The notes under the pieces: model-generated
Databases searched by the model: none
Seen by the model: the letters and a program-made list of their open reading frames with translations, nothing else
What the model was told of the DNA's origin: nothing
NCBI GenBank assembly: GCA_945906965.1
Contig: CAMDRP010000008.1
Location: 1 to 59,622, forward strand
Direction: 5' to 3'
Source: Opitutus sp. GAS368
Lineage (GTDB): Bacteria > Verrucomicrobiota > Verrucomicrobiia > Opitutales > Opitutaceae
DNA: 59,622 bases
Shown here: in pieces, positions 4,765 through 52,771 of the stretch
How the letters are laid out: each line of letters opens with the position of its first letter
Numbering within the stretch: position 1 is the stretch's first letter
Program-made: the position numbers and the translations under genes

Positions 4765-6855
4765 TCAGTTGAGCCGCTTTACGCTCTTCACGGCCCACTT
4801 GCTGACCGTAAGGCCTTTGGCGCTGCGGCTGCTCACCGGCAAAGGCGTAAGATCGAAGTCGAGTTCGCGAATGCGCGCTCCGCCACGACCATCGATTGAA
4901 ACATGCAGCGTTTTGGGCATCGCTTTCTCCGCGGGGCTGACGTCGAGGTAGATCACCTTGGAACCCTCACTGGGGACGAGTGGGTACAATTTATCTCGAG
5001 AGAATCCACCAATTTGGAAGCGCTTAGCGAAGGCTTTGCCCGATGCGCCATCCTGATAAACCATGGTATAAAAATTCTTATCACCGTCAGCGGGCAGAAT
5101 CACGCAATGGATAATATCGCGTCCCATAAAAACCTTGTCGGCGACCTTGGTAACCTTGAGCGAGCCATCGGCCATCAGGCACAATACGCTGTCGAGCACG
5201 GAGCATTCCTGCACGAATTCGTGCTGGCGCCAGTTCAGGCCGATGAAACCTTCCTCCCGATTGACGTAGAGGCGCTGGTTCACGGAGACGACCTGCGCGG
5301 CGTTGATCTGTTCGATCTCGTCGTAGGTCGTGCGGCGCTTGTGGCCTTTGCCGTATTTTTCCTGCAAAGTCTCAAACCACTTCACGGCATATTCGGTGAG
5401 ATTCTTGAGGTGATGTTTCACCTCTTTCATCTCGACCTCCGTCTTCTTCATGGCCTCGTCGGCTTGGAAACGGTTATAGGCCGAGATGCGCTTGATGCGT
5501 ATTTCGGTGAGACGCGTGATATCTTCGTCGGTAACGTCGCGGCGGAGTTGCTTGAGGAATGGCTTTAAACCCTCGCGAATCTCGCTGATGACCTCAGCCC
5601 AGGTTTTTGATTTTTCGATTCGGCGATAGATGCGCTCCTCTATAAAAATACGTTCCAAGGAGTCCCAGTGCCATTGTTGCTCCAACTCGCCGAGACGGAT
5701 CTCAAGCTCGCGCTTCAAGAGCGTCTTCGTCTTATCGACACTGCGGCGCAGGATCTCGCGCACACCGAGGAAATGAGGTTTATCGTCCTCGATCACGCAG
5801 GCCGCCGGCGATAGTGCCAACTGGCAATTCGTGAAGACGTAAAGCTGTTGGATAATCTTCTCCGCTTCGGCACCCGCGGGCAGGTGCACAAGAATTTCGA
5901 CAACGTCGGCGGTGTTGTCATCGACGTGTTTGATCTTGATTTTACCCTTCGCGTTGGCGCCGAGGATCGACTCGATAAGCGACTCGGTCGTCGCGCCGTA
6001 AGGTAATTCCGTGATCGCAAGCAGGTACTTCGAGCGCACCTCGATCTTGGCGCGGACCTTCACTTTACCGCCGCGCTCGCCATCATTGTATTCACTGAAA
6101 TCGGCGATACCGCCGGTGGGGAAATCAGGATAAATGCGGAAGGTTTTTCCTTGGAGGTGATTAATGGCCGCGCGACACAGATCGTTAAAATTATGCGGGA
6201 GAATCTTGGTCGAGAGGCCGACCGCGATACCTTCGGCCCCCTCGAGCAAAACGATGGGGAACTTAGCGGGAAGCGTGACAGGCTCCTGCGCGCGGCCGTC
6301 GTAACTGAGCTGCCAAGCAGTGGTCTTAGGGTTGAAGAGCACGTCCTTGGCGAAGGGCGTGAGTCGGGCCTCGATGTAACGAGGAGCCGCCGCGTCGTCA
6401 CCGGTGAGCGTGTTGCCGAAGTTTCCCTGCGGCTCGATAAGAAACGAGCGTTGGCCGATGCCGACGAGCGCCGCTCCGATCGAAGCATCACCGTGCGGAT
6501 GCAACGACATCGCGCGGCCGACGACGTTGGCCACCTTGTGAAAACGACCGTCATCCATGTCCCATAACGTGTGGAGAATACGGCGTTGGACGGGCTTGAG
6601 ACCATCGTCGAGATGCGGGACGGCGCGATCGAGAATGACGTAGCTCGCGTACTCCAAAAACCAGGTGCGGTAATGTTTTACCAGCGGCGCATCGGGTGAA
6701 TTTTTCTCGGCAACTTTGGGTGCCGCGACGACGAGCGCGGTGGCCGTATCTTCGGCGCCGGAAGCCGCGGGAACCACTGGGGCCGCGGGTGTAGTATCGC
6801 CGGAAAGCGAGAGCTCAGTTTGATCGGAGGCCTTCGGTACTTTGCGTTTGGGCAT
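4765..6855 (-). CDS. parC: DNA topoisomerase IV subunit A
   Basis: Cleavage-religation subunit of a second type II topoisomerase (696 residues). After a roughly 55-residue low-complexity leader comes the winged-helix/tower core ([20 protein letters not shown]), with the catalytic tyrosine at residue 160 in APRYIEARL. The protein is shorter than GyrA (836 residues, 35569-38079) and lacks the GyrA-box (QRRGGKG type), which fits a decatenase rather than a gyrase. The overall type resembles the ParC of Bacteroidetes and PVC bacteria more than enterobacterial ParC. In the quinolone-contact stretch HPHGDASIGAAL, the positions equivalent to GyrA Ser83 and Asp87 are Ala124 and Ala128. It starts 52 bp after parE on the same strand, so the two are likely co-transcribed. 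The ATG has no clear Shine-Dalgarno. Confidence 0.95.
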   Translation of the reverse strand: MPKRKVPKASDQTELSLSGDTTPAAPVVPAASGAEDTATALVVAAPKVAEKNSPDAPLVKHYRTWFLEYASYVILDRAVPHLDDGLKPVQRRILHTLWDMDDGRFHKVANVVGRAMSLHPHGDASIGAALVGIGQRSFLIEPQGNFGNTLTGDDAAAPRYIEARLTPFAKDVLFNPKTTAWQLSYDGRAQEPVTLPAKFPIVLLEGAEGIAVGLSTKILPHNFNDLCRAAINHLQGKTFRIYPDFPTGGIADFSEYNDGERGGKVKVRAKIEVRSKYLLAITELPYGATTESLIESILGANAKGKIKIKHVDDNTADVVEILVHLPAGAEAEKIIQQLYVFTNCQLALSPAACVIEDDKPHFLGVREILRRSVDKTKTLLKRELEIRLGELEQQWHWDSLERIFIEERIYRRIEKSKTWAEVISEIREGLKPFLKQLRRDVTDEDITRLTEIRIKRISAYNRFQADEAMKKTEVEMKEVKHHLKNLTEYAVKWFETLQEKYGKGHKRRTTYDEIEQINAAQVVSVNQRLYVNREEGFIGLNWRQHEFVQECSVLDSVLCLMADGSLKVTKVADKVFMGRDIIHCVILPADGDKNFYTMVYQDGASGKAFAKRFQIGGFSRDKLYPLVPSEGSKVIYLDVSPAEKAMPKTLHVSIDGRGGARIRELDFDLTPLPVSSRSAKGLTVSKWAVKSVKRLN

Positions 6856-6907
6856 TGCGGGAAAGTGTCGCTGAAATGGTTTACGCTAACGTTCGAGTCG
6901 CAGCGCT

Positions 6908-8749
6908 TCAGGCTACAATTAGGTCTTTTTCGACCTTAAGATTATCGATAATGAAATCCTGACGCTCTGGGGTGTTTTTTCCCATATAGAACGAAAGCAG
7001 CTCATCGGTGTTGTGCAGGTGATGGAGCGAGACGGGCTCGAGCCGGATTTTTTCACCGATGAAATCCTTGAACTCATTGGCGGAGATTTCACCTAGGCCT
7101 TTGAAGCGCGTGATCTCGTGGCTGGCGCCGAGTTGGGCGATGGCGGCCTGTTTTTCTTGTTCGTCGTAACAGTAGATCGTTTTCTTTTTGTTACGCACGC
7201 GAAAGAGCGGCGTCTCAAGAATCGAAAGGTGCCCGCGGGCGATCAGATCGGGGAAAAATTGCAGGAAAAACGAGAGTAACAGCAGGCGAATGTGCATACC
7301 GTCCACATCAGCATCGGTCGCAATGATGACTTTACCGTAGCGCAGACCGTCGAGTCCTTCCTCAATGTTGAGCGCAGATTGGAGGAGGTGAAATTCCTCG
7401 TTTTCGTAAATGACTTTTTTAGAGAGGCCGTACGTGTTGAGCGGTTTGCCCTTGAGGGCGAAGACCGCCTGCGTCTGCACGTCGCGGCAAGCGGTGAGCG
7501 AGCCGGCGGCACTGTCACCCTCAACGATAAAGAGGCTGGAGCCTTCGGCGCGCTCGTTCTTATCGCCGAAATGGAGGCGGCAATCGCGGAGTTTCTTGTT
7601 GTGCAGCGAGGCCTTCTTGGCGCGCTCGCGGGCGAGGTTGCGAATACCGGCGAGTTCCTTGCGCTCGTGTTCGCTCGCTTGGATTTTTCTGAGAATCGCC
7701 TCGGCCGTTGCGGGATTTTTGTGGAGATAAACGTCGAGCGTCTGCTGGACAAATTTACCGATGAAATCCTTCACACTCGGGCCACCTGGGCCCATGTCGG
7801 CGGAACCGAGTTTGGTCTTAGTCTGCGATTCGAAAACAGGTTCCTGCACGCGTACGGCGATCGCGGCGACGATAGATTGGCGCACATCGGCGGCTTCGAA
7901 TTCTTTTTTGTAAAAATTGCGTACGGTCTCGACGACAGCCTCGCGGAAAGCCTGCTGATGCGTGCCGCCCATTGTGGTGTGCTGGCCGTTGACGAAGGAG
8001 AAATATTCTTCACCGTAATGGCTACCGTGGGTCATCGCAAATTCGATGTCTTCGCCCTCGAGATGCAGGATCGGATACAGCGTCTCGCCGGTGAGGTTTT
8101 TAGCGAGTAAGTCTTCGAGGCCTTTTTCGGATTTAAACGCCTTGCCATTGAAGGTGAGCGTGAGCCCGCGATTCAAGAAGGCATAGTTCCAAAGCATGTC
8201 CTCAACGAATTCAGGACGGAACTTGAAGTCGGCGCCGAAGAGCGCGGCGTCAGGGATGAACTCAATAAGCGTACCGTTGCGCTCGGTAGATTTGATAACC
8301 TTGTGGTCTTTCTTGAGTTTACCCTGAGCAAATTCGACGAGCTTCGATTCGCCTTCGCGGATGGCAGTGGCGCGGTATTCGAGAGCGAGGGCGTTAACGG
8401 CTTTTTGGCCGACACCGTTGAGGCCGACAGCTTTTTGAAATGTTTCGCTGTCGTATTTGGCGCCCGTGTTGATGATCGAGACGCAGTCGATGAGTTTACC
8501 GAGCGGGATGCCGCGGCCGTAATCGCGCACGAGCACGGTGCGATCGTTGAGCTCGATTTCGATCTTCTTGCCGTGGCCCATCATGAACTCATCGATCGAG
8601 TTATCGATGGTCTCCTTCAGGAGAACGTAAATGCCGTCCTCGGCGTGGGTGCCGTTGCCGAGCCGGCCGATGTACATGCCGGGACGCAGACGGATGTGCT
8701 CGAGGGACGAAAGGGTCTTGATACTAGCTTCAGTGTAGTTGGACGCCAT
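6908..8749 (-). CDS. parE: DNA topoisomerase IV subunit B
   Basis: ATPase subunit of topoisomerase IV, 613 residues. The N-terminal GHKL ATPase is visible as [17 protein letters not shown] and the GRGIP box; the transducer domain follows. The TOPRIM domain begins at EGDSAAGS (Glu410), and TDADVDGMH supplies the metal-binding acidic residues. The C-terminus ends soon after the conserved KGLGEI motif without the insertion present in this organism's GyrB (850 residues). The sequence style ([29 protein letters not shown]) is shown here only in part and matches the Bacteroidetes/PVC-type ParE. It precedes parC by 52 bp in one operon. The ATG at 8749 lacks an upstream Shine-Dalgarno. This is a firm family call, and the pairing with parC supports topoisomerase IV. 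Confidence 0.95.
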
Positions 8750-21844: not shown

Positions 21845-22312
21845 ATGCGCTCCGTGCTTACCGCTTTTTTGTTATTCACCTTAGTCTCCTTAGCGCGCGC
21901 CGCGGACGTCGAACTCACGCGCGTCTGGCCAGCGTGGCGCAGCGCAGAATCGTTTGAGCGCATCTCGGAATATTTCAACGGTCAGGAAAACACGGGCCGC
22001 CACACTGTGCTGCGCACGCAACCCAACGCGCGTGCCGGCTACTATTTTCTTATACGCGCCAAAGCCGCGGCAAACACGACCGGGGCTAAATTTGTACTAC
22101 AGATCATCACCCCCGAGGCACCTGAGCCCAAGACCCATACCTTCCCAATCACACTCGGTCCGAAAGAAGCGGTTTTTGATATCGGTCTAACGGGCACGGA
22201 TTGGGCCGGACGTAAAACGCACGCGGTCGCTTGGCGCCTAAGCGTGGTCAACGCCGAAGGCCGCGAACTCGCCAGCCAGCAAAGTTTCCTATGGTCGAAT
22301 CCGGCGCCGTGA
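21845..22312 (+). CDS. Small secreted protein of unknown function
   Basis: Protein of 155 residues beginning at the ATG at 21845. The reading frame is open further upstream, but that part overlaps the binding-protein gene in another frame, and a clear Sec signal peptide (MRSVLTAFLLFTLVSLARAA) starts at the chosen ATG. The mature part looks beta-rich (HTFPITLGPKEAVFDIGLTG, WRLSVVNAEGRELAS) and ends in NPAP. I do not recognise a family. It overlaps the start of the OGG1-like gene by 22 bp, so the two genes are probably translated from one message and coupled. The combination of a periplasmic protein with a DNA glycosylase looks more like genomic compaction than a shared function. Confidence 0.8.
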   Translation: MRSVLTAFLLFTLVSLARAADVELTRVWPAWRSAESFERISEYFNGQENTGRHTVLRTQPNARAGYYFLIRAKAAANTTGAKFVLQIITPEAPEPKTHTFPITLGPKEAVFDIGLTGTDWAGRKTHAVAWRLSVVNAEGRELASQQSFLWSNPAP

Positions 22313-23250
22313 ATCTTAAAGGTTGGACCGACTGGCGACCGCTCGCGCTAGCGACGCCACCCAACTCAGCTGTACTCGCAGAAACGATCGACGGTGGGCA
22401 GGCGTTTCGGTGGCAGCGTGCAGCGGACGAGATTTGGCTGGGGCAATGGGATCGCCACCTCGCGCGCCTGCGTCTCGGCGTAGCGGGTCGGCTGGAATGG
22501 TCGGCAGCCACAGCGGGGACAGAGGCGGCGCTGAGCACGTATCTCGACTCTAACCGCGATGCGCGGGAACTGGCGGATACGTTACCGTGGCGCAGCGATG
22601 TGCATCTAGCGCACTGCATCGCCGCGTTTCCAGGACTGAGGATTTTGCGGCAACCGTTCGGCGAGACCTTGCTGGGATTTTTGTGCAGCGCGACCAAGCA
22701 GATCGTGCAGATCAAGCAAATGATGGCGCTGCTCGCCGCGCGGCATGGTGCGGTGATTGCTGCCGAGGGCGCAACGGATGTGAAGGACGGGGGCGGGGAT
22801 GCACGGATGGGCCGATGGTCGGTCCCCAACTACCACCGATTGCCGACGTGGACGGAGATCGCGGCGGTGCCGGAGGCAGAGTTGCGCGGGTGTCTACTGG
22901 GATTTCGCGCACGCTACATTCACCAAACAGCGCAATTCATCGCGGCAAATCCGGGCTGGCTAGAGGAAACGGAGGCGTTGCCCTACACGGAGGCGAAGGC
23001 GCGACTAGTCACATTGCCCGGCGTGGGGGAAAAAGTCGCGGATTGCGTGCTACTGTTCGGCGCAGGGCGACTGGAGGCGTTTCCAGTGGATGTGTGGATT
23101 TTGAAAACGATGGCGGCGAGGTACGGGCTCGACGGATGGAAGCCGGCACAGGTGGCGCAGTTTGGACGCGCGCACTTCGGTCCGCTGGCCGGTTTGGCGC
23201 AGCAATATCTTTTCGCATGGGAGCGGGCCGAGGCGCGGCGCGGCACGTAA
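22291..23250 (+). CDS. OGG1-like 8-oxoguanine DNA glycosylase (HhH-GPD)
   Basis: Base-excision repair enzyme of 319 residues. The start is the ATG at 22291; an upstream in-frame start would extend it into a basic, non-homologous leader. The N-terminal OGG domain includes GGQAFRW, matching the glycine region used for 8-oxoG recognition in OGG1. The helix-hairpin-helix LPGVGEKVADC supplies the catalytic Lys248, and PVDVW supplies Asp267; these fall almost exactly on human Lys249 and Asp268. It should remove oxidised purines and act as a bifunctional glycosylase/AP lyase. The OGG1 asparagine loop (FICSSNNNIARI in human) reads FLCSATKQIVQI here, so substrate or opposite-base preference may differ. 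The gene overlaps the preceding one by 22 bp. Its wobble positions are G-rich. Confidence 0.9.
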   Translation: MVESGAVNLKGWTDWRPLALATPPNSAVLAETIDGGQAFRWQRAADEIWLGQWDRHLARLRLGVAGRLEWSAATAGTEAALSTYLDSNRDARELADTLPWRSDVHLAHCIAAFPGLRILRQPFGETLLGFLCSATKQIVQIKQMMALLAARHGAVIAAEGATDVKDGGGDARMGRWSVPNYHRLPTWTEIAAVPEAELRGCLLGFRARYIHQTAQFIAANPGWLEETEALPYTEAKARLVTLPGVGEKVADCVLLFGAGRLEAFPVDVWILKTMAARYGLDGWKPAQVAQFGRAHFGPLAGLAQQYLFAWERAEARRGT

Positions 23251-23278
23251 GCGGGAGGCGCGGAGTAACGCGAAGCAA

Positions 23279-24304
23279 CTAGGCGTTGATCTGCAAGGCG
23301 GCGACTTGGGCGCGCAGGACATCTCCGAGTGCGAGCAGATGCGTGGTCGCGGGATAAGCAGGCCAAGGCGCGAGAGCGGCAGTAGCATGCGCAAGTTCGT
23401 CATGAATGCAGGTAGTCACGGCAGCGAATACACCTAGGTCGTTCATTTGCTGGAGGCGGAGCGCAAGCTGAGGTGGACGTTTACCGGTGATTTCCTCGGA
23501 GAGGAGTTGGCGCTCAGCAGCGGGGAGGCGTTCGCTGAGGGTAATCAGAGGGAGCGTGAGTTTGCCGCTAGCAAGATCGGTACCTAGGGTTTTACCGATG
23601 CGGGCTTCGGTACCGAAGTAATCGGCAAGGTCGTCGTAAATTTGGTAAGCGATGCCGAGGTGGCGGCCAAAGCGGGCGGCGGCATCGGCGCAAGCGGGCT
23701 CGGCGCCAGAGAGTTTAGCGCCTAGGAAGCAGGAGACGCGGAATAATTCGGCGGTCTTGAGGTCGATGATGCGCTGGTAATCGGCGAGGGAAATGTTGAG
23801 CGAGCCGCGGCGGAGAGTTTGGACGATCTCGCCAGCGCAGACGCGGCGCGTGGATTCGGAGACGGCGGCGCAGATTTCGGTGGTGGGAAATTGCGTGGCA
23901 AGGTGGAGCGCATGGGCGAAGAGCGCATCACCGAGAAGCACGGCTGCAACGGGGCCGAATTCACGGGCCGCGGTGCGACGGCTGCGACGAACGACAGCTT
24001 CGTCCATGATGTCGTCGTGCACAAGCGTGGCGAGATGGACGAGTTCGACGACGGCGGCGACGCGGACGAGGTCTGGCGTGATGGCTCCGGGGCCGCGCCA
24101 GCCGCTTAAAAAAACGAGCGCGGGTCGGATACGTTTGCCCGAAGTATCGATGCAGTAATCAGCCATGGCCCGAATCTCGGGCTCAAAGGACTCCAGTTGA
24201 GCGTGTAGAAAGCGGTCGAGTTCGGCCATGTGGGGCGCGAGATGAGCAAACACGCCGGCAAAGGCGGGCTTGGGGCTGGGCGCGGTAGAGGCTTCGCGGT
24301 TCAT
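23279..24304 (-). CDS. Polyprenyl diphosphate synthase (long-chain, class 1 trans-isoprenyl)
   Basis: Protein of 341 residues of the polyprenyl_synt family, probably making the octaprenyl- or longer diphosphate side chain of a quinone. The isopentenyl-diphosphate-binding GKRIRPALV lies at residues 57-65. The first aspartate-rich motif is DDIMD at 97-101, and the second is DDLADYFG, preceded by YQIY. Product length cannot be read with confidence from the residues before the first motif. The start is the ATG at 24304; no Shine-Dalgarno is seen. It is convergent with the OGG1-like gene (28 bp between stop codons). The roughly 350-bp leader upstream contains a terminator hairpin (24384-24410) pointing the same way, so an independent promoter must lie between that hairpin and 24304. 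Confidence 0.93.
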   Translation of the reverse strand: MNREASTAPSPKPAFAGVFAHLAPHMAELDRFLHAQLESFEPEIRAMADYCIDTSGKRIRPALVFLSGWRGPGAITPDLVRVAAVVELVHLATLVHDDIMDEAVVRRSRRTAAREFGPVAAVLLGDALFAHALHLATQFPTTEICAAVSESTRRVCAGEIVQTLRRGSLNISLADYQRIIDLKTAELFRVSCFLGAKLSGAEPACADAAARFGRHLGIAYQIYDDLADYFGTEARIGKTLGTDLASGKLTLPLITLSERLPAAERQLLSEEITGKRPPQLALRLQQMNDLGVFAAVTTCIHDELAHATAALAPWPAYPATTHLLALGDVLRAQVAALQINA

Positions 24305-32912: not shown

Positions 32913-35513
<2,601 letters not shown>

Positions 35514-35568
35514 TCCGCGCCCCGCATCGGCCACCACCTAACGTTTATCGCTCATCGCCCCCTCTTCT

Positions 35569-38079
35569 GTGTACACCGCCAACGAAAAACTCTCCTCGGC
35601 CAACATCACCGACATCATGCAGTCAGCCTACATCGAGTACTCGATGTCGGTCATCATCTCGCGCGCCCTCCCCGACGCCCGCGATGGCCTGAAGCCCGTG
35701 CAACGCCGCGTTCTTTACGCGATGCTCCGCGAAGGACTGCTCCACAACCGCTCCTTCGACAAATGCGCCGGCGTCGTCGGTGAAGTCCTTAAAAATTACC
35801 ACCCACACGGCGATTCCTCCGTGTACGACACGCTCGTCCGCATGGCCCAACCTTGGGTCATGCGCTACCCGCTCATCGATCCGCAAGGCAACTTCGGCTC
35901 CGTGGACGGCGATCCACCCGCGGCGTACCGTTACACCGAGGCGCGCCTCAACGCGATCGCCGAAGACCTCCTTAAAGACATCGAGGAGGACACCGTGGAC
36001 TTCGTACCCAATTACAAAGAATCCACGACCGAGCCCACCGTGCTCCCGTCCGCCTTGCCGAATCTTTTGATGAACGGCTCGACCGGTATCGCTGTCGGCA
36101 TGACCACCAACATCCCGCCGCATAACATCGACGAGATCATCAACGCCACCTTCGCCATCATCGACAACCCCCGCATCTCCGTCGACGAACTCTGCGAGAT
36201 CGTGCGCGGGCCCGATTATCCCACCGGCGGCATCATCTCCGGCCGCGACGGCATCCTCTCCTACCTCAAGACCGGCAAGGGCATCGTGCGCACCCGCGGC
36301 AAAGCCCACACCGAGGAACTCAAGGGCGGCATGGAGCAGATCGTCATCACCGAGATTCCCTATAACGTAAACCGTAACACCTTGGTCCTGCGCATCGCCG
36401 AACTCGTCAGCGAAAAGGAAATCGACGGCATCCGCGACCTCCGCGACGAATCCGACGAGAATACCCGCATCGTCATCGAGCTCAAACGCGGCGAACAGGC
36501 CAAGGTTGTCATCAACCAGCTCTTCCAAAAAACCGCCCTCGAATCCTCCTTCGGCGTCACGCTCCTGGCTCTCGACAAGAAGCGCCCGAAGCAGATGAAC
36601 ATCAAGGAACTCATCGAGTGCTACATCGAGCACCGCCGCGACGTCGTCACCCGCCGCACCAAGTTCCGCCTCAAAGAAGCCGAAGACCGCGCTCACATCC
36701 TCGAAGGCTACATCATCGCCCTCGATAACCTCGACGACTTCGTCAAAATCATCCGCGCCTCCTCCAATCGCGAGGAAGCCAAACAACGCTTGATGGCGAA
36801 GTACCCGCTCTCCGAGCGCCAAACCGACGCCATCCTCGAGCTCCGCCTCTATCAACTCACCGGCCTGGAGCGCGGTAAGATCGAGGCCGAGTACCTCGAG
36901 CTCATGAAGCTCATCGCCGAACTCCGCGCCATCCTCGAGTCCGAGGCTGTGCTCATGGCTCTGATCAAAAAAGAACTCGGCGAGATGAAGGCGAAATACA
37001 CCTCGCCCCGTCGCACCGAGATCATCGGCTCCGCCGGCGAATTTCGCATGGAAGATGTCATCCCCAACGAAGGCTGCGTCATCACGGTCTCCCACTTGGG
37101 TTTCATCAAGCGCACGCCTGTCGCTGACTACCGCTCGCAGAAACGCGGCGGTAAAGGCGTCATCGGCGCCGAGACCTACGACGAGGATTTCGTGCAGAAT
37201 CTTTTCACCGCCTCGACCCACGATTACATCTTATTCCTGACCAGCATCGGCCAATGCCATGCCAAAAAGGCCTATGATGTCCCCGAGGGCACGCGCACCG
37301 CAAAAGGCAAATCCGTCGCCAGCTTCCTCCGTCTCGCGGAGGGCGAAAAGATCGCCGCGATGATCTGCGTCAAAGATTTCGCCGAAGATCGCTTCCTCGT
37401 CATGGCCACCAAGAGCGGCGTCATTAAGAAGAGCTCCCTCGCCGACTACGCCAACTGCACCCGCGACGGCGGGCTCATCGGCATCAACCTCGCCGACAAC
37501 GACACCGTCATCGGCACGGTCCTCACCACCGGCAACGACGAACTCATCCTCGTCTCCCACCAAGGCCTCGCCGTCCGCTTCCGCGAACGCGATCCCGAGA
37601 CGGGCGAGGAAAACTTCCGCGCCACGGGTCGCGCCACGGGCGGCGTCACGGGCATGCGCTTCAAGCTCGATAGCGACCACCTCGATGTCATCGAAGTCGT
37701 CGACCACACCGCCAAATTCCTCGTCGCCAGCGAAGCCGGTCTTGGCGTCCGCACGCGCTTCGAAGATTACCGCCTCATCAACCGTGGCGGCAGTGGCGTC
37801 TGGGCGATCGATCTACCCGAAGACGGTTCGATCAAACTCGCTGGCGCCCTCAGCGTCAAAGACACCGATGAAATCATGCTTCTCACCGCCAAGGGTCAGA
37901 GCGTGCGTTGTCCGGTTAATACGATCCGCGAAGTAAATCGCGGTGGCAAAGGCGTGAAGCTGCTGACGCTAGCCCCCGGCGACAAATTGCTGAGCGTCGC
38001 GCGCGTCGTCGAAAGCGCGGAAGAACTCGAAGCCGCCGCCGGCGGTGAAGAGGAAATTCCACCCACCGCGACGACTTAA
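35569..38079 (+). CDS. gyrA: DNA gyrase subunit A
   Basis: DNA-cleaving subunit of gyrase, 836 residues. I use the GTG at 35569, giving [20 protein letters not shown] right after the start; no ATG fits better. The catalytic tyrosine is Tyr122 in [10 protein letters not shown]. The quinolone-resistance-determining region reads [11 protein letters not shown], with Ser83 and Asp87 at exactly the E. coli positions, so the gyrase looks quinolone-sensitive. The C-terminal wrapping domain is present, with the GyrA-box QKRGGKG near residue 525 and six beta-pinwheel blades, marking this enzyme rather than the 4765-8749 pair as the supercoiling one. It follows gyrB by 55 bp and ends before an intrinsic terminator at 38127-38160. 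Confidence 0.98.
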
Positions 38080-47796: not shown

Positions 47797-49377
47797 TTAC
47801 GTAGCCGTCTCCGTGAAGCGCGCTTCGCGGATGACGGTGATCTTAATCGTGCTCGGGTATTGGAGCTCGGACTCGATCCGGGCGCGGAGTTCTTTGGCGA
47901 TGTCGCGGGCGCGGTCATCGGTGACGTGTTGGGGCGAAACTACGACGCGAATCTCGCGGCCGGCCTGAATCGCAAACGCCTGTTGCACGCCTTCGATTGA
48001 GAGCGCGAGTTTCTCGAGGCGATCGAGCCGTTGGACGTAGCCGGCGATGGATTCCGCGCGGGCGCCGGGCCGAGTGGCGGAGATCGTGTCAGCGAGAATC
48101 ACAATGCCGGCGTAAATCGTCTCAGGTTTGACCTCTTCGTGGTGGGCGGCGACGGCGTTGGTGACGATCGGCGTCTCCCCGTAGCGTTTGATAAATTCGG
48201 CGCCGATATGAGCGTGCGAACCCTCGAGTTCGCCGGAGGCGGCTTTGCCGATATCGTGAAGTAGACCGGCGCGTTTGGCGAGGTTGGGATCGAGGCCGAT
48301 CTCGCTCGCGATCAAAGAAGCGAGAAACGCCGTCTCCACCGAGTGATCGAGGACGTTTTGGTTGTAGGAGAAACGGTATTTCAGTTTGCCGAGCAGCTTA
48401 ATGATCTCGGGGTGGAGGCCGTTGATGTTGAGCTTGGTGACGGCGTCTTCACCGGCCTGCGTGGTGACAAGGTCGATCTCCTCGCGGGCGCGTTGGACGA
48501 ATTCTTCGATGCTGGCCGGATGGATGCGGCCGTCTTTCACCAACGCGTCGAGGGCCGAGCGGGCGATCTCGCGGCGGATCGGATCAAAGGACGAAATCAA
48601 AACCAGCTGGGGCGACTCATCGATGAGCAACGTGACGCCGGTAGCGGCTTCGAAGGATTTGATGTTGCGGCCTTCGCGACCGATGATGCGGCCCTTCATT
48701 TCCTCACTGGGCAACGGCACGAGCGTGGCGGTAAGGTCGTTGTTGGGTTTGCTCGCGATGCGCTGCATGGCGGCGATCAAAATACGACGCGCGTCGTTCT
48801 GGAGTTCTTGTTCCGATTTTTCGAGCATCTGGCGACGCATCGAGCGCAGCTCGTCCTGACACTCCAGCGTGACTTCCTCGCGCAGGGCGCGGCGGATTTC
48901 CTCGGCATCCATTTGGGAAACGCCTTCAAGACGTTTGCGGACGTTTTTGGAGAGGGCGCGGATCGCGTCGCGGGCTTGTTTGACGGCGGCGGTCTCGCGA
49001 TTGATGCGTTCCTGACGCTGTTCCAACTGATAATCAAGGAGCCCCAGGGATTCCTCGTGGGCGCGGATCTCGCGCAGGCGCACATCCATCTCGATCTCGC
49101 GGCGATCGTAATCGCGGTTCAACTCGGCGCGTTTCTCCTGAATTTCGAGATCGGCTTTCTGTTTGAGCTCTTCGGCGGCCACCGCGGCTTCGCGCCGAGC
49201 GACCTCGATCAACTCGGTCGCCTGTTCCTGCGCGATGCGCCAGGTATGGCGGCGTAAGGCCCAAACACCGAAAAAGCCGAGCAACATGCCCACGGCAATG
49301 GATAGCGAGAGCGACCAATCAAAAGAGTCGCTCTCGGCGATCAAGAATGCGAAGTCGGCGGCGCTTTCTGTCGTCAA
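47797..49377 (-). CDS. rny: Ribonuclease Y
   Basis: Membrane-anchored endoribonuclease that initiates mRNA decay, 526 residues (Bacillus protein 520). One N-terminal membrane helix lies at about residues 22-41, followed by a long coiled coil (about 45-200), a KH domain (IGREGRNIKSFEAATGV) and an HD domain (GLLHDIGKA, with EGSHAHIGAEF). The start is a TTG at 49377; it is needed to keep the residues before the membrane segment, and internal GTG or ATG starts would cut into the membrane helix. No Shine-Dalgarno is seen. It is divergent from rodA, with a 292-bp region between. RNase E/G is encoded just beyond rodA, so both decay-initiating enzymes are present. Confidence 0.95.
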   Translation of the reverse strand: MTTESAADFAFLIAESDSFDWSLSLSIAVGMLLGFFGVWALRRHTWRIAQEQATELIEVARREAAVAAEELKQKADLEIQEKRAELNRDYDRREIEMDVRLREIRAHEESLGLLDYQLEQRQERINRETAAVKQARDAIRALSKNVRKRLEGVSQMDAEEIRRALREEVTLECQDELRSMRRQMLEKSEQELQNDARRILIAAMQRIASKPNNDLTATLVPLPSEEMKGRIIGREGRNIKSFEAATGVTLLIDESPQLVLISSFDPIRREIARSALDALVKDGRIHPASIEEFVQRAREEIDLVTTQAGEDAVTKLNINGLHPEIIKLLGKLKYRFSYNQNVLDHSVETAFLASLIASEIGLDPNLAKRAGLLHDIGKAASGELEGSHAHIGAEFIKRYGETPIVTNAVAAHHEEVKPETIYAGIVILADTISATRPGARAESIAGYVQRLDRLEKLALSIEGVQQAFAIQAGREIRVVVSPQHVTDDRARDIAKELRARIESELQYPSTIKITVIREARFTETAT

Positions 49378-49669
49378 GGAACGCGAACCCTAGGTGGCTA
49401 CTACTAGTGAGCTCAAGCCTTTCTACTAGGGTGCTTGAAATTTTCGGTTCACTGCGTGCCGCTGAAGCAGCCGCACCATAGCTCGGTTAACGTTAATTTC
49501 ATGAGAGACTTAACCTCGATCTCAGGGAGCTATTTTAGCCTAGGCCGAGGCGCGTAAATGGCCAAATAGGGCCGGGACGCGTCGGCGCTCTTGCAGAGTG
49601 GGTGTGAAACGTTATCACGTAGTATTTACCGCAAAGTAACGCGCTCGCCCGACGTTTAAGCCCAAGCCC

Positions 49670-50911
49670 ATGAATCTCGCCTCACCGCTCGATACCCTCG
49701 GGGTCTTTAAGACCACGACGCGCGGGCGTTGGGATTGGCTGACCCCACTGGCGATCTTGGCGCTCAGTGGTTTCGGTATCGCTTTCATCTACTCGGCGCA
49801 GCTTTCAGTGCACGGCTCGGATTGGGTCAAACAAGTGGTTTTTCTGGGCCTCGGGGCGCTGGTTTATGCAGGGGTGGCGATGATTGATTACCGATTTTGG
49901 CTGGGGATCGCGCATTGGATCTATTTTTTGGCCATGGTGCCGCTAGTCTTGGTGCTAATTCCAGGTATCGGCAGCGAGGTCTATGGGTCACAGCGCTGGA
50001 TCAATCTGGGGTTCTTCTCCTTTCAACCCTCGGAAACGGCCAAGGTCGCGGTGTTGCTAATCACGGCGAGCACGTTGATCCGCAATGAAATCGGGACGAT
50101 CCAGCAGTCTTTGGGCGTATTAGGGAAATTGGCCCTTGCGGTGGGCTTGCCCATGCTTTTGGTGTTGTTGCAGCCGGATTTAAAGTCGGCGATTGTCCTG
50201 CCCCCGATGGTGTTTTCCATGCTTTACGTTTCCAAGTTGTCCGTGCGCTTTTATGCGGTGGCGCTGGGCGCGTTCGTGTTACTCGTAAGCATCGTAGCTT
50301 GGGATAGTTATAACTATGTGCGGTTTATGGACAGCCACGGGTATTCCTTCGTCGAAAAGAAGGATCGCGGCAAATACGAGGCGCTCTCCTGGGTGCCCCT
50401 TCACGATTATCAGCGCAACCGCATCCTCGCCTTCGCCGCCCCGGAAAAAGTCGATCCAAGCGGCACCGGCATCACGTATAACCGCACCCAATCGCTCATT
50501 TCTGTCGGCTCCGGCGGCTTAACGGGCCGCGGCTGGCAAGAAGGCACGCAGGCTCAACTTGGCTACCTGCCGCGCTCCATCGCGCACAACGACTTTATCT
50601 TTTCTGTAATTTCCGAAGAACTCGGTTTCCTGGGAAGCATCACGGTTCTCGGCCTGTTTGGGCTGGTACTGTTCAACGGCATCCGCATCGCCGGTCTCGC
50701 GAGAGACCGATTCGGCACCCTCCTCGCCCTCGGCGTGACGGTGCTGTTTTTGGTGCATGTGTTTGTGAACATCGCCATGACCATCGGGCTCGTGCCCATC
50801 ACGGGCATACCGCTTCCCTTCATCAGCTACGGTGGCTCCTTTGTGCTCAGTTGCTGCTTGCTGCAAGGACTGGTCCAGAGCGTCTATCGCTTCCGAAAGG
50901 ATTTCGCATGA
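49670..50911 (+). CDS. rodA: Rod shape-determining protein RodA (SEDS glycosyltransferase)
   Basis: SEDS-family peptidoglycan polymerase, 413 residues with about ten membrane segments. Recognisable blocks are GSQRWINLGFFSFQPSE (the conserved SEDS signature), PDLKSAIVLPPMV, a long periplasmic loop with RNRILAFAAPEKVDP, AHNDFIFSVISEELGFLG and the C-terminal GIPLPFISYGGSF. Together these fit RodA rather than FtsW. It works with a class B penicillin-binding protein (not in the window). The first half of the gene uses G/T-ending codons and the second half, from about 50390, mostly C-ending codons. The ATG at 49670 has no Shine-Dalgarno. The RNase E/G gene starts 105 bp downstream. Confidence 0.95.
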   Translation: MNLASPLDTLGVFKTTTRGRWDWLTPLAILALSGFGIAFIYSAQLSVHGSDWVKQVVFLGLGALVYAGVAMIDYRFWLGIAHWIYFLAMVPLVLVLIPGIGSEVYGSQRWINLGFFSFQPSETAKVAVLLITASTLIRNEIGTIQQSLGVLGKLALAVGLPMLLVLLQPDLKSAIVLPPMVFSMLYVSKLSVRFYAVALGAFVLLVSIVAWDSYNYVRFMDSHGYSFVEKKDRGKYEALSWVPLHDYQRNRILAFAAPEKVDPSGTGITYNRTQSLISVGSGGLTGRGWQEGTQAQLGYLPRSIAHNDFIFSVISEELGFLGSITVLGLFGLVLFNGIRIAGLARDRFGTLLALGVTVLFLVHVFVNIAMTIGLVPITGIPLPFISYGGSFVLSCCLLQGLVQSVYRFRKDFA

Positions 50912-51016
50912 ACTCCATGCAACTTCCTCTCCGCGTTATCGACCGCTCTGCCGGAATTTCCTGCGCCGCGACCTCCCCACATCGGTGCCCCGGGCTTAAC
51001 CCGCATAGCACCCACC

Positions 51017-52771
51017 ATGAGCGATCAATCGCAATTCCCCAAACCCGATGCCCCGTCCACGGACATCTCCCAAAAGTATGACGCCGAGCTGGCCAACCCA
51101 CCTCCGGTCGAAGAAGTCACCGGCGTCAACGCCAGTGAGCTAAAAGCCAGCGCCGCCGAACGCGCCAAGGACCGCCCCCTCCTCCAGAAAATCCTCGCGG
51201 TTTTTCAAAAGGAAAAGAGCACCTACCGCGAACTCATCATCAATTCCGAGCCGCTCGAGAAGCGGGTTGCGCTCCTCATCGACGGCCGCCTCGAGAAATT
51301 TGAAATCGAGCGCGAGTCCGACGACCGCATGGTCGGCGGCATCTACAAGGGCCGCATCAAGAACCTCGATCCCGGCCTCAAAGCCGCCTTCGTCGACATC
51401 GGCTACTCCAAGAACGCGTTTCTGCACTACTGGGATATGCTCCCCGCTGCAACCGATTCCAACATCGAGGTCGTCCGCGTTAACAAAAAGAAAAACGCCG
51501 CCCCCCGCCCCGCCGAGCCCACGGTCAAAGACATCCCATCGATGTATCCCCCGGGCTCCGAGATCGTGATCCAGGTCACCAAAGGCCCCATCGGCACCAA
51601 AGGCCCGCGCACCACGACCAATCTATCCATTCCCGGCCGTTACCTCATCCTCACGCCGTTTTCTGATGGCTGCGGCATCTCCCGCAAAATCGAGGACCCG
51701 CAGGAACGCAAACGCCTCAAAACCCTCATCAACGAGCTCACCCTCCCCGAAGGCGTGGGCGTGATCGTCCGCACCGCCGGCGAGGGCAAGAAATCGCGTT
51801 ACTTCGTCCGCGATCTCCACCTGCTCCTCAAGACTTGGGAGAACATCCAGCACAAGATGCTCAACGACAAAGCCCCGTGCTGCCTCTACCAGGAGCCCGA
51901 CGTTGTCGAGCGCACCGTGCGCGATTTCCTCACCGAGGAAGTTGACCGCGTCCTCATCGACAGCAAAGACGACCACGAGCGTACCCAGAAACTGGTCGCC
52001 CAGATCTCCAAACGCTCCGCCAGCAAGATCGCCCTCTACAAAGACAGCATCCCGATCTTCGAACGCTTCAACATCGAGCGCCAGATCGAGCAGACCGGCC
52101 AGCGCAAGGTTCCGCTTCCCTCCGGCGGCGAAATCATCATCGACGAAACCGAGGCCCTCATCGCTGTCGACGTAAACACCGGCTCCCACAAGAACCGCGG
52201 CGGCGACGAGAAAAACGTCATCTATGCCGTCAACCTTGAGGCCGCCGCCGAAATCGCCCGCCAGATCCGCCTCCGCAATCTCGGGGGTCTGATCATCATG
52301 GACTTCATCGACATGAAGGAACGGCGCCACCGCAACGCCGTTTACGAAAAGATGGTCGAGCTGATGTCCACCGACAAAGCCAAGAACCACATCCTGCCCA
52401 TCTCGCAACTCGGCATCATGCAAATGACCCGCCAGCGCCAGCAGGAATCGCTCTCGGCCAATCTCTACACCGACTGCCCGTATTGCCGGGGCCGCGGCAT
52501 CGTGAAGAGCGCGACCACCATGTCGGTCGAGCTCCAACGCCGCCTCTCGTCTATCGCGCGCCGCCTCCAAGTCCGCAACGACGGCAAGGAATACTCCCTG
52601 CGCGTCCTCGTCCACCCGAGCATCCTCGAACGTCTCCGCAGCGAAGATGCCGACCTGCTCGTGCGCGTCGAGAAACTCTACGGCGTGAAACTCGCCTTCC
52701 GCGCCGATCCCAACTACCACCTCGAACACTTCAAGGTCATCAACGCCATCACCGGCGAAGAATACCGCTGA
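51017..52771 (+). CDS. rng: Ribonuclease E/G family endoribonuclease
   Basis: Protein of 584 residues, similar in plan to RNase G. The S1 RNA-binding domain near residues 95-190 ([21 protein letters not shown] in part, then AFLHYWDM) carries an insertion ([13 protein letters not shown]). The 5'-sensor/DNase I-like core follows, with catalytic Asp385 in IAVDVNTG and Asp429 in MDFIDM. The zinc-link cysteines are Cys487 and Cys490 in CPYCRGRG. There is no long unstructured tail as in E. coli RNase E, so it lacks an obvious degradosome scaffold. It should process rRNA and decay mRNA alongside RNase Y. It follows rodA by 105 bp and has its own terminator at 52817-52848. The ATG has no Shine-Dalgarno. 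Confidence 0.95.

Follow-up and report, generated by a model that had tools for sequence, protein, structure and literature searches.

Constrained silent sites at the end of rodA point to an RNA element ahead of an RNase E/G-family gene in Opitutaceae

Introduction

The 5′ leader of the E. coli rne gene carries the Rfam name rne5. This 361-nt 5′ UTR mediates feedback regulation in cis, and the 5′ UTR of Synechocystis rne holds a cis element that is cut by RNase E and for which a role in control has been proposed, with a U-rich site and premature termination (both as given in passages of PMC10989929). For viruses, the FRESCo method, as outlined in part of PMC4376164, seeks excess synonymous constraint over elements embedded in coding regions, and PMC2031905 gives a general description of the compositional asymmetry between strands (GC skew) in bacterial chromosomes.

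The DNA considered here, called the window below, is a stretch of 59,622 nucleotides from Opitutus sp. GAS368 (GenBank assembly GCA_945906965.1, contig CAMDRP010000008.1, positions 1 to 59,622 of the forward strand). On its plus strand lies rodA, of the FtsW/RodA/SpoVE family (49670..50911, 413 codons; PF01098, E = 4.7e-82), followed on the same strand by an RNase E/G-family gene, here called rng (51017..52771; PF10150, E = 1.2e-98), which is the presumed target of the element described below. An earlier note on the window had sorted its genes into two wobble-base classes, ending most codons in C or in G regardless of coding strand, and had seen a switch of class inside rodA. That change of composition inside one gene led to a predicted RNA element that had been hidden in it, while the genome-wide classes behind it turned out to be largely ordinary strand bias.

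Strand Asymmetry and the Wobble Bias

Genes were called in 860 kb of the Opitutus sp. GAS368 genome, made up of the window and 40 stretches of 20 kb, with a purpose-made dipeptide-scoring model in which third positions are not scored; among the 755 calls, some spurious antisense ORFs are left in the ribosomal region. Large differences between genes in C- and G-ending codons, as the earlier note had reported, were found first in raw composition and then in theta, the amino-acid-corrected C-versus-G tilt at four-fold sites fitted gene by gene, and they exceed what sampling and amino-acid usage would give. Over the 605 called genes of at least 450 nt, theta has a standard deviation of 0.436 against a sampling error of 0.093 (chi2/df 25). 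The two classes themselves dissolve on inspection, as theta forms a single broad hump (Silverman test p = 0.96; BIC 725.7 for one Gaussian and 730.5 for two), the unimodal shape that the earlier note had named as speaking against its own proposal, and two discrete codon classes were rejected for these 605 genes.

The supposed independence from the coding strand also gave way, for the sign of theta goes with the strand. Within the window, the 12 plus-strand genes have a mean theta of +0.29 and the 22 minus-strand genes a mean of −0.24 (p = 0.003), with exceptions to the rule among them. Adjacent genes on the same strand resemble each other (r = +0.75 for gaps of at most 50, n = 150; r = +0.59 for larger gaps, n = 210), those on opposite strands are opposed (r = −0.64, 204 pairs), and the signs are still present eight genes apart, where opposite strands give −0.38. 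Strand-signed theta per stretch follows intergenic GC skew (r = −0.89, 41 stretches), so that non-coding DNA shares the asymmetry. Among the 573 genes kept by a score filter, skew alone correlates with theta at r = −0.61, against |r| of at most 0.13 for random strand labels, and 42% of the variance is taken up when intergenic skew and the neighbouring genes are used together as predictors in a regression. From the neighbour correlations, the intergenic skew and the regression, it follows that the classes are strand bias plus a residual. The wobble classes are thus largely ordinary DNA-strand asymmetry of the GC-skew type, and the earlier note was wrong to exclude what is their main cause. This asymmetry pushes third positions towards G on one strand and towards C on the other.

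The Opitutus sp. GAS368 assembly consists of 190 contigs, from which the order of skew along the chromosome is not derivable, and two complete relatives were therefore of use. The 4.73 Mb chromosome of relative G016, sampled in 20 stretches, falls into two skew halves with two changes of sign and with theta opposite on the two strands; the pattern in the 5.96 Mb relative G015 is weaker and noisier. The G-rich strand carries 113 of 189 genes in G016 (one stretch of near-zero skew omitted) and 251 of 486 in Opitutus sp. GAS368. In both complete relatives dnaA lies near the start of the record, off the skew turning points of G015 (about 1.7 and 4.4 Mb) and roughly 170–410 kb from one in G016. A parS consensus with up to one mismatch allowed was found in none of six genomes, and the SSU rRNA family, also sought for locating the origin, was likewise found in none of six, in a search that recovered only 9 of 14 control genomes; neither result is informative about the origin.

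Some local features may be recorded here. In one stretch of the Opitutus sp. GAS368 genome (L024, C6:20001-40000), the ribosomal L2 gene and, as judged by eye, rpoB-, rpoC- and ribosomal-protein-like genes sit on the locally C-rich strand, in contrast to the L2 gene of G015 and G016, which is on the G-rich strand. At 22291-24229 of the window, an OGG-like glycosylase gene (plus strand, G-leaning) and a polyprenyl synthetase gene (minus strand, C-leaning) tilt opposite to their surroundings; a recent inversion at 22–24 kb was rejected because the OGG, polyprenyl synthetase and AddA genes have the same order and orientation in all seven relatives that have the three genes at the locus. The window also holds a second gene pair of the gyrase/topoisomerase IV type (4768-8749) besides gyrB-gyrA (32961-38079), with a Pfam assignment for the A subunit of the second pair only, its B subunit and gyrB-gyrA being named by eye.

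After the strand context is removed, the residual of theta has a standard deviation of 0.33, well above the sampling error of 0.09. It leans towards G in polytopic membrane proteins (−0.30 in 47 genes versus +0.03 in the 526 others); proteins with at least four predicted membrane segments make up 16 of the 50 lowest residuals and none of the 50 highest, and within the 47 membrane genes the membrane segments are G-leaning relative to the loops by 0.084 (p = 0.0097). The residual goes with the use of C in two-fold boxes (rho 0.73). By Pfam, the ten most C-leaning genes after strand correction encode RecA, enoyl-CoA hydratase, a histidine-biosynthesis barrel (HisF-type), a TonB receptor, a GMC oxidoreductase, deoxyhypusine synthase, part of a membrane pyrophosphatase and others, with one lacking a match, while the ten most G-leaning include TauE, AddA-like, HAD, hydrolase, GATase and TPR proteins, with three lacking a match at 1e-8. 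rodA and its paralogue ftsW have the same residual, −0.47. This second, gene-specific part of the bias would thus consist of G in membrane proteins and C in others, perhaps the abundant ones, and expression level is a plausible driver of it, judging from the kinds of genes involved.

The Composition Change inside rodA

What the earlier note had described as a switch to mostly C after about 720 bp of rodA is there in the raw composition, where C minus G at four-fold sites is −0.14 for codons 1–240 and +0.23 for the rest, whereas the description of the remainder as mostly C fails once amino acids are corrected for, the tilt of the same two parts being −0.46 and −0.04 (z = 2.7). In seven successive pieces theta is −0.39, −0.68, −0.57, −0.29, +0.42, −0.14 and −0.35; the remainder is not mostly C because the excess of C is a bump at codons 237–295, after which the tilt is negative again. 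The best change point, at codon 225, has z = 3.44, a value attained by 13 of 139 genes of 350–480 codons, rodA included, and the switch is a modest one.

Relatives were compared through 109 rodA loci which, with the window, gave 101 distinct sequences. Largely the same gradient is found in them, an outcome that the earlier note had set against its own reading: in 70 of 101 orthologues the lean towards C is greater in the later part than in the first, z being above 2 in 25 orthologues and below −2 in 3. The bump at codons 237–295 is the mean pattern over these 101 sequences (+0.22), goes with the tilt of rng (r = 0.57) and coincides with a stretch without predicted membrane segments (crude hydropathy); it is not explained by the RNA structure described below. 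A replacement of half of rodA by recombination, also raised by the earlier note, found no support when the two parts were tested separately for phylogenetic origin. Both trees contain the same close group of six members (support 1.0), and for the five closest relatives the two parts show no difference in four-fold divergence (Fisher p 0.21–0.87).

Silent-Site Conservation in rodA

Among 12 more distant relatives, 11 have a clearly lower four-fold divergence in the 3′ part of rodA than in the 5′ part (Fisher p < 0.05). The conservation was quantified in 74 orthologues, left after dropping sequences with GC3 below 0.65, with fewer than 380 codons or at least 90% identical to a kept sequence, as the excess of four-fold identity over the expectation from each gene's own codon usage in bins of 25 codons. 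This excess is 0.10 in codons 1–25 and −0.00 to 0.06 in codons 26–225, except for 0.16 in codons 151–175, and from codon 226 onwards successive bins give 0.10, 0.15, 0.21, 0.30, 0.21, 0.27, 0.48 and 0.31. The stretch of excess synonymous conservation spans 50417..50911 on the plus strand (codons 250–413) and is strongest in codons 376–405. The control genes rng (61 sequences) and rny (16 sequences) reach at most 0.13 in any bin; in matched genomes ftsW (14 sequences) has a maximum of 0.13, rng (12) one of 0.17, from a 6-column bin, and rodA (14) one of 0.48. A profile of the same shape was obtained from 14 genomes found by protein search.

Rare codons are among those kept, with GGA322 and CTT382 in 74 of 74 orthologues and GGA400 in 73. 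The tilt of codons 296–413 varies between the 74 species with a standard deviation of 0.095, below the sampling expectation of 0.138, while an equally long upstream piece of rodA has 0.295, or 9.6 times the variance; the tilt of codons 296–413 is weakly correlated with that of rng (r = 0.34). These codons are more C-leaning than codons 1–225 in only 45 of the 74 orthologues, so that the direction of the switch differs between species. In our reading, the visible switch lies near the boundary between free and constrained codons, and the silent sites are most likely not free from about codon 250 because the rodA-rng messenger folds there.

An isolated conserved island was seen farther upstream at 50126..50140 of the plus strand (codons 153–157), with TTG154 and CTT156 in all 74 orthologues and GCG157 in 61; it may belong to an alternative fold. 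The island contains CCTTGC, complementary to GCAAGG at 50863-50868 in the 5′ arm of the hairpin described below.

An overlapping or antisense protein gene was considered for codons 280–413 and found no support, as no frame is kept open across the 74 orthologues. Frame −1 is open in 36 of 74 against 34 expected, and frame +3 has 81 stops against 137 expected and is open in 23 of 74 against 11, which falls short of a kept frame; the other three frames are open in none.

A Predicted RNA Structure across the rodA Stop Codon

Comparative analysis makes it highly probable that a conserved RNA structure exists at the end of rodA and in the spacer behind it. The predicted element, given here in window coordinates, consists of a domain of about 200 nt inside rodA, followed by an interrupted hairpin of 31 pairs across the end of rodA and the spacer, all on the plus strand. 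The 5′ arm of the hairpin (50850..50890) lies inside the last 20 codons of rodA, the rodA stop codon (50909..50911) is in the apical loop (50891-50932), and the 3′ arm (50933..50972) belongs to the first 60 nt of the rodA-rng spacer, with a conserved box starting GACCGC at 50941. In the hairpin, GGACTGG, CAG, GCG, TC and TATCGC of rodA pair with GCGTTA, GA, CGC, CTG, CCGG and TCC of the spacer, with further pairs outwards. The upstream domain, predicted from comparative pairing, covers 50616..50818 with 42 pairs. It is closed by a helix of GGGAAG with CTTCCC (50632-50637/50813-50818), in which the invariant codons GGA322 and CTT382 face each other, and is preceded there by a small hairpin (50616-50631). 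Inside are the helices 50651-50655/50786-50790, 50670-50679/50763-50771, 50693-50697/50704-50708, 50714-50719/50740-50745 and 50725-50728/50732-50735, and an inner hairpin at 50792-50797/50803-50808.

The loci for structure prediction were those in plus orientation with enough spacer, numbering 63 (window folds), 64 or 76 out of a 95%-identity set of 91; the hairpin was folded over 76 sequences, and pairs were counted in an alignment (A2) of 43 of the 64. Among the 300 most strongly covarying column pairs, 36 are complementary, over a background of 6%. The second strongest complementary pair is 50890-50933, and 50886-50937, lower in rank, belongs to the same helix, which joins the end of rodA with the spacer. 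Codon 406 of rodA switches between TAT and TGG, and its partner bases in the spacer change along with it, A/G and T/G at 50886-50887 being accompanied by T/C and A/C at 50937-50936; in the window sequence itself, 50887/50936 reads T-T. The two columns fail to pair in 13 of 43 sequences, as do 50894/50899 in 19 of 43.

Over the 43 sequences, 94.2% of hairpin cells are paired, compared with 28.6–47.7% when the partner is slid. Double changes that keep a pair occur in 30 cells, where shuffles give 11.3 (0 of 500 reaching 30) and slid versions 1–14, and they affect seven pairs against 3.5 in shuffles (1 of 500 as high), although the slide of +3 still keeps 6 such pairs with 14 cells. For the upstream domain, 97.4% of cells are paired and 31 double-change cells stand against 11.2 in shuffles (0 of 500 as high); 7 of its pairs covary, a number attained by 30 of 500 shuffles. 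With a tree of codons 1–285, upstream of the modelled element, 39 double compensatory changes were inferred over 73 pairs, versus 2–6 in six slid controls that keep the codon phase, while the 109 pair-breaking changes are inside the range of the slid controls (72–138).

Departures from pairs with a Watson–Crick majority are more often G.U than A.C, at 179 versus 27 in the upstream domain and 66 versus 45 in the hairpin, which favours RNA of the coding strand, although this comparison and that with the slid controls are tipped towards the structures because these were predicted on the coding strand (G.U allowed, A.C not) from the same sequences in which pairs were counted. Window folds over the spacer gave z of −9.6 and −7.5 for the coding strand and −8.8 and −7.8 for the complementary strand (8 column shuffles each), and when 40 sequences were folded singly, the hairpin had only a slight advantage over shuffles (mean z −1.4).

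Paired wobble sites in codons 315–406 are more conserved than unpaired ones (0.44 versus 0.27, p = 0.0015), with no significant difference within codons 315–375 (0.33 versus 0.24, p = 0.3). Since unpaired wobble sites are conserved as well, the structure model is incomplete, and the synonymous excess in codons 250–315 falls outside it. At 50600-50619 another small hairpin is suggested by a strong covariation of 50602 with 50617 (wobble positions of F311 and E316); it conflicts with the consensus-fold hairpin at 50616-50631.

A search of Rfam returned no family match at E ≤ 5 in 49400-51300 of the window and none at the gathering score in seven related loci. An intrinsic terminator was not found at the hairpin, the only terminator-like site in 50300-51100, a stretch with 0.7 expected by chance, being 50731-50746.

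Occurrence of the Element

A covariance model of the hairpin was searched against 223 genomes of the order, with stricter filters at which weak matches are lost. At E ≤ 0.001 it matched 25 genomes, once each, and all 25 matches are located between rodA and rng. Of the 22 Opitutaceae genomes among those listed, 21 matched at E ≤ 1e-17, and four of the other genomes at 3e-5 to 2e-4; the weak matches contain many non-standard pairs and depend chiefly on the coding arm. Seven Opitutaceae genomes were checked via rng, of which four have strong matches, G020 (E = 1.8e-7) and G232 (0.0074) weak ones and G024 none. The element is thus strong in 25 of the 28 Opitutaceae genomes examined, G232 being counted once. 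All three exceptions retain rodA next to rng, and their loci have 47–50% G+C, compared with 60–66% in the four strong cases of the same check. These three lower-GC members of the family, with rodA-rng and without a convincing hairpin, indicate that the gene pair can do without it.

The Opitutus sp. GAS368 genome has a single hairpin match at E ≤ 0.001, and a further weak one (L031, 17.4 bits, E = 0.48) was taken as chance. Sequence resembling rng was also seen 3′ of rodA in the five order-level loci (L064, L068, L070, L072 and L073) with a correctly read downstream flank. In the window, an RNase Y-type gene is divergent to rodA-rng (47797-52771), so that rodA is flanked by two endoribonuclease genes. 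None of the literature entries listed dealt with an RNA element at a junction of rodA with an RNase E/G gene, which does not prove its absence from print.

What the Element May Do

The explanation that we consider probable joins the two lines of evidence: strand bias and a gene-specific residual would account for the wobble differences between genes, and the silent sites of rodA would be held by a folded rodA-rng mRNA that acts as a cis leader of rng. The messenger, presumably co-transcribed from both genes, would fold into the domain of about 200 nt and then into the hairpin with the stop codon in its loop, and the folded element would act in cis as the leader of the RNase E/G gene that follows. 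The RNase E/G enzyme, or RNase III, might sense or cut this messenger and so set the level of the enzyme, a job that would be that of the E. coli rne leader, embedded in this case in the upstream gene. A cis-acting leader for feedback or processing is the most likely role because the element, wherever it was matched, is always 5′ of the RNase E/G gene and because leaders control the RNase E genes of E. coli and, as has been proposed, of Synechocystis. That the feedback would come from the rng product itself is quite possible on these analogies, and the embedding in rodA could couple the RNase level to rodA translation. More tentatively, the whole, some 360 nt in length, may represent a new RNA family in Opitutaceae that serves as an RNase E/G feedback sensor within rodA and ties the RNase level to translation of the elongation machinery via the stop-codon hairpin, with the island at codons 153–157 maybe taking part in an alternative fold.

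RNA-processing sites at operon junctions commonly take the form of a long interrupted stem. The hairpin has this shape and its model always matches at the rodA-rng junction, and it might be no more than a site at which RNase III or RNase E splits the rodA message from that of rng and determines how stable the two are relative to each other, with no feedback by the rng product. Such a site alone would not need a conserved upstream domain of about 200 nt, and we regard this alternative as doubtful. Translational coupling, in which ribosomes ending rodA at the stop codon open the hairpin and allow expression of rng, would agree with the position of that codon in the apical loop (as seen in the window) and with the coding nature of the 5′ arm; it is nonetheless unlikely, since the start codon of rng follows the 3′ arm at a distance of 45 nt, behind variable sequence, and the start region is therefore outside the stem.

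The conserved box in the spacer and the single match of the model in the genome would also suit a DNA element, be it an origin, terminus, partition or promoter site. The double compensatory changes speak against it, as does the excess of G.U over A.C departures, the latter helped by prediction on the coding strand. Moreover, rodA is far from the approximate skew turns, at 332 kb in G015, with turns near 1.7 and 4.4 Mb, and at 872 kb in G016, with turns near 2.2 and 4.5 Mb, and a sigma-70-like promoter had no match in 50300-51100, other promoter types being outside the model. A DNA element is accordingly very unlikely. Spread of similar 3′ ends of rodA by recombination, in place of selection on silent sites, would give the lower 3′ divergence seen in the 11 of 12 more distant relatives, and is hardly credible in view of the six-member group shared by the trees of both parts, the compensatory changes and the overall greater conservation of paired than of unpaired sites. 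Codon choice kept for co-translational membrane insertion or accuracy in the C-terminal half is the least credible of all: the synonymous excess does rise with amino-acid conservation (rho 0.32), but there is no such excess in ftsW of the same family or in the well-conserved rng and rny, the conserved rodA residues are not more C-leaning than the variable ones (mean difference −0.015, which leaves translational accuracy unsupported), and the covariation extends into the non-coding spacer.

Comparison with Known Systems

Synonymous change is usually taken as neutral or as codon optimisation. In Opitutaceae, an RNA structure apparently constrains the last 100 to 160 codons or so of a cell-wall gene and continues past its stop codon into the leader of an RNase gene. 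The proposed leader offers a testable model for RNase E/G control outside the well-studied groups and may connect RNA decay with cell elongation.

The compositional background agrees with the GC skew of bacterial chromosomes in its strand-dependent sign, its intergenic skew and the two halves of a complete chromosome, with no difference in kind. With the viral regions sought by FRESCo, as far as the consulted part of that source describes them, the locus shares low synonymous change over an element embedded in a coding region; the difference is that a bacterial gene pair is concerned, across a family, and that the structure runs through the stop codon into the spacer. Like the Synechocystis rne 5′ UTR, in the passages that describe it, the rodA-rng element would be a cis element preceding an RNase E/G-family gene; cutting by the enzyme is a feature of Synechocystis, as are the U-rich site and premature termination, whereas the rodA-rng element is predicted to be base-paired and has no terminator-like site at the hairpin. 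From the E. coli rne leader it differs in showing no homology to that leader family in Rfam, where no family matched at E ≤ 5 in 49400-51300, and in lying mostly inside the coding sequence of the upstream gene, with a feedback that is proposed by analogy. What the two have in common is a long structured RNA, predicted from sequence in the present case, directly 5′ of a gene of the RNase E/G family.
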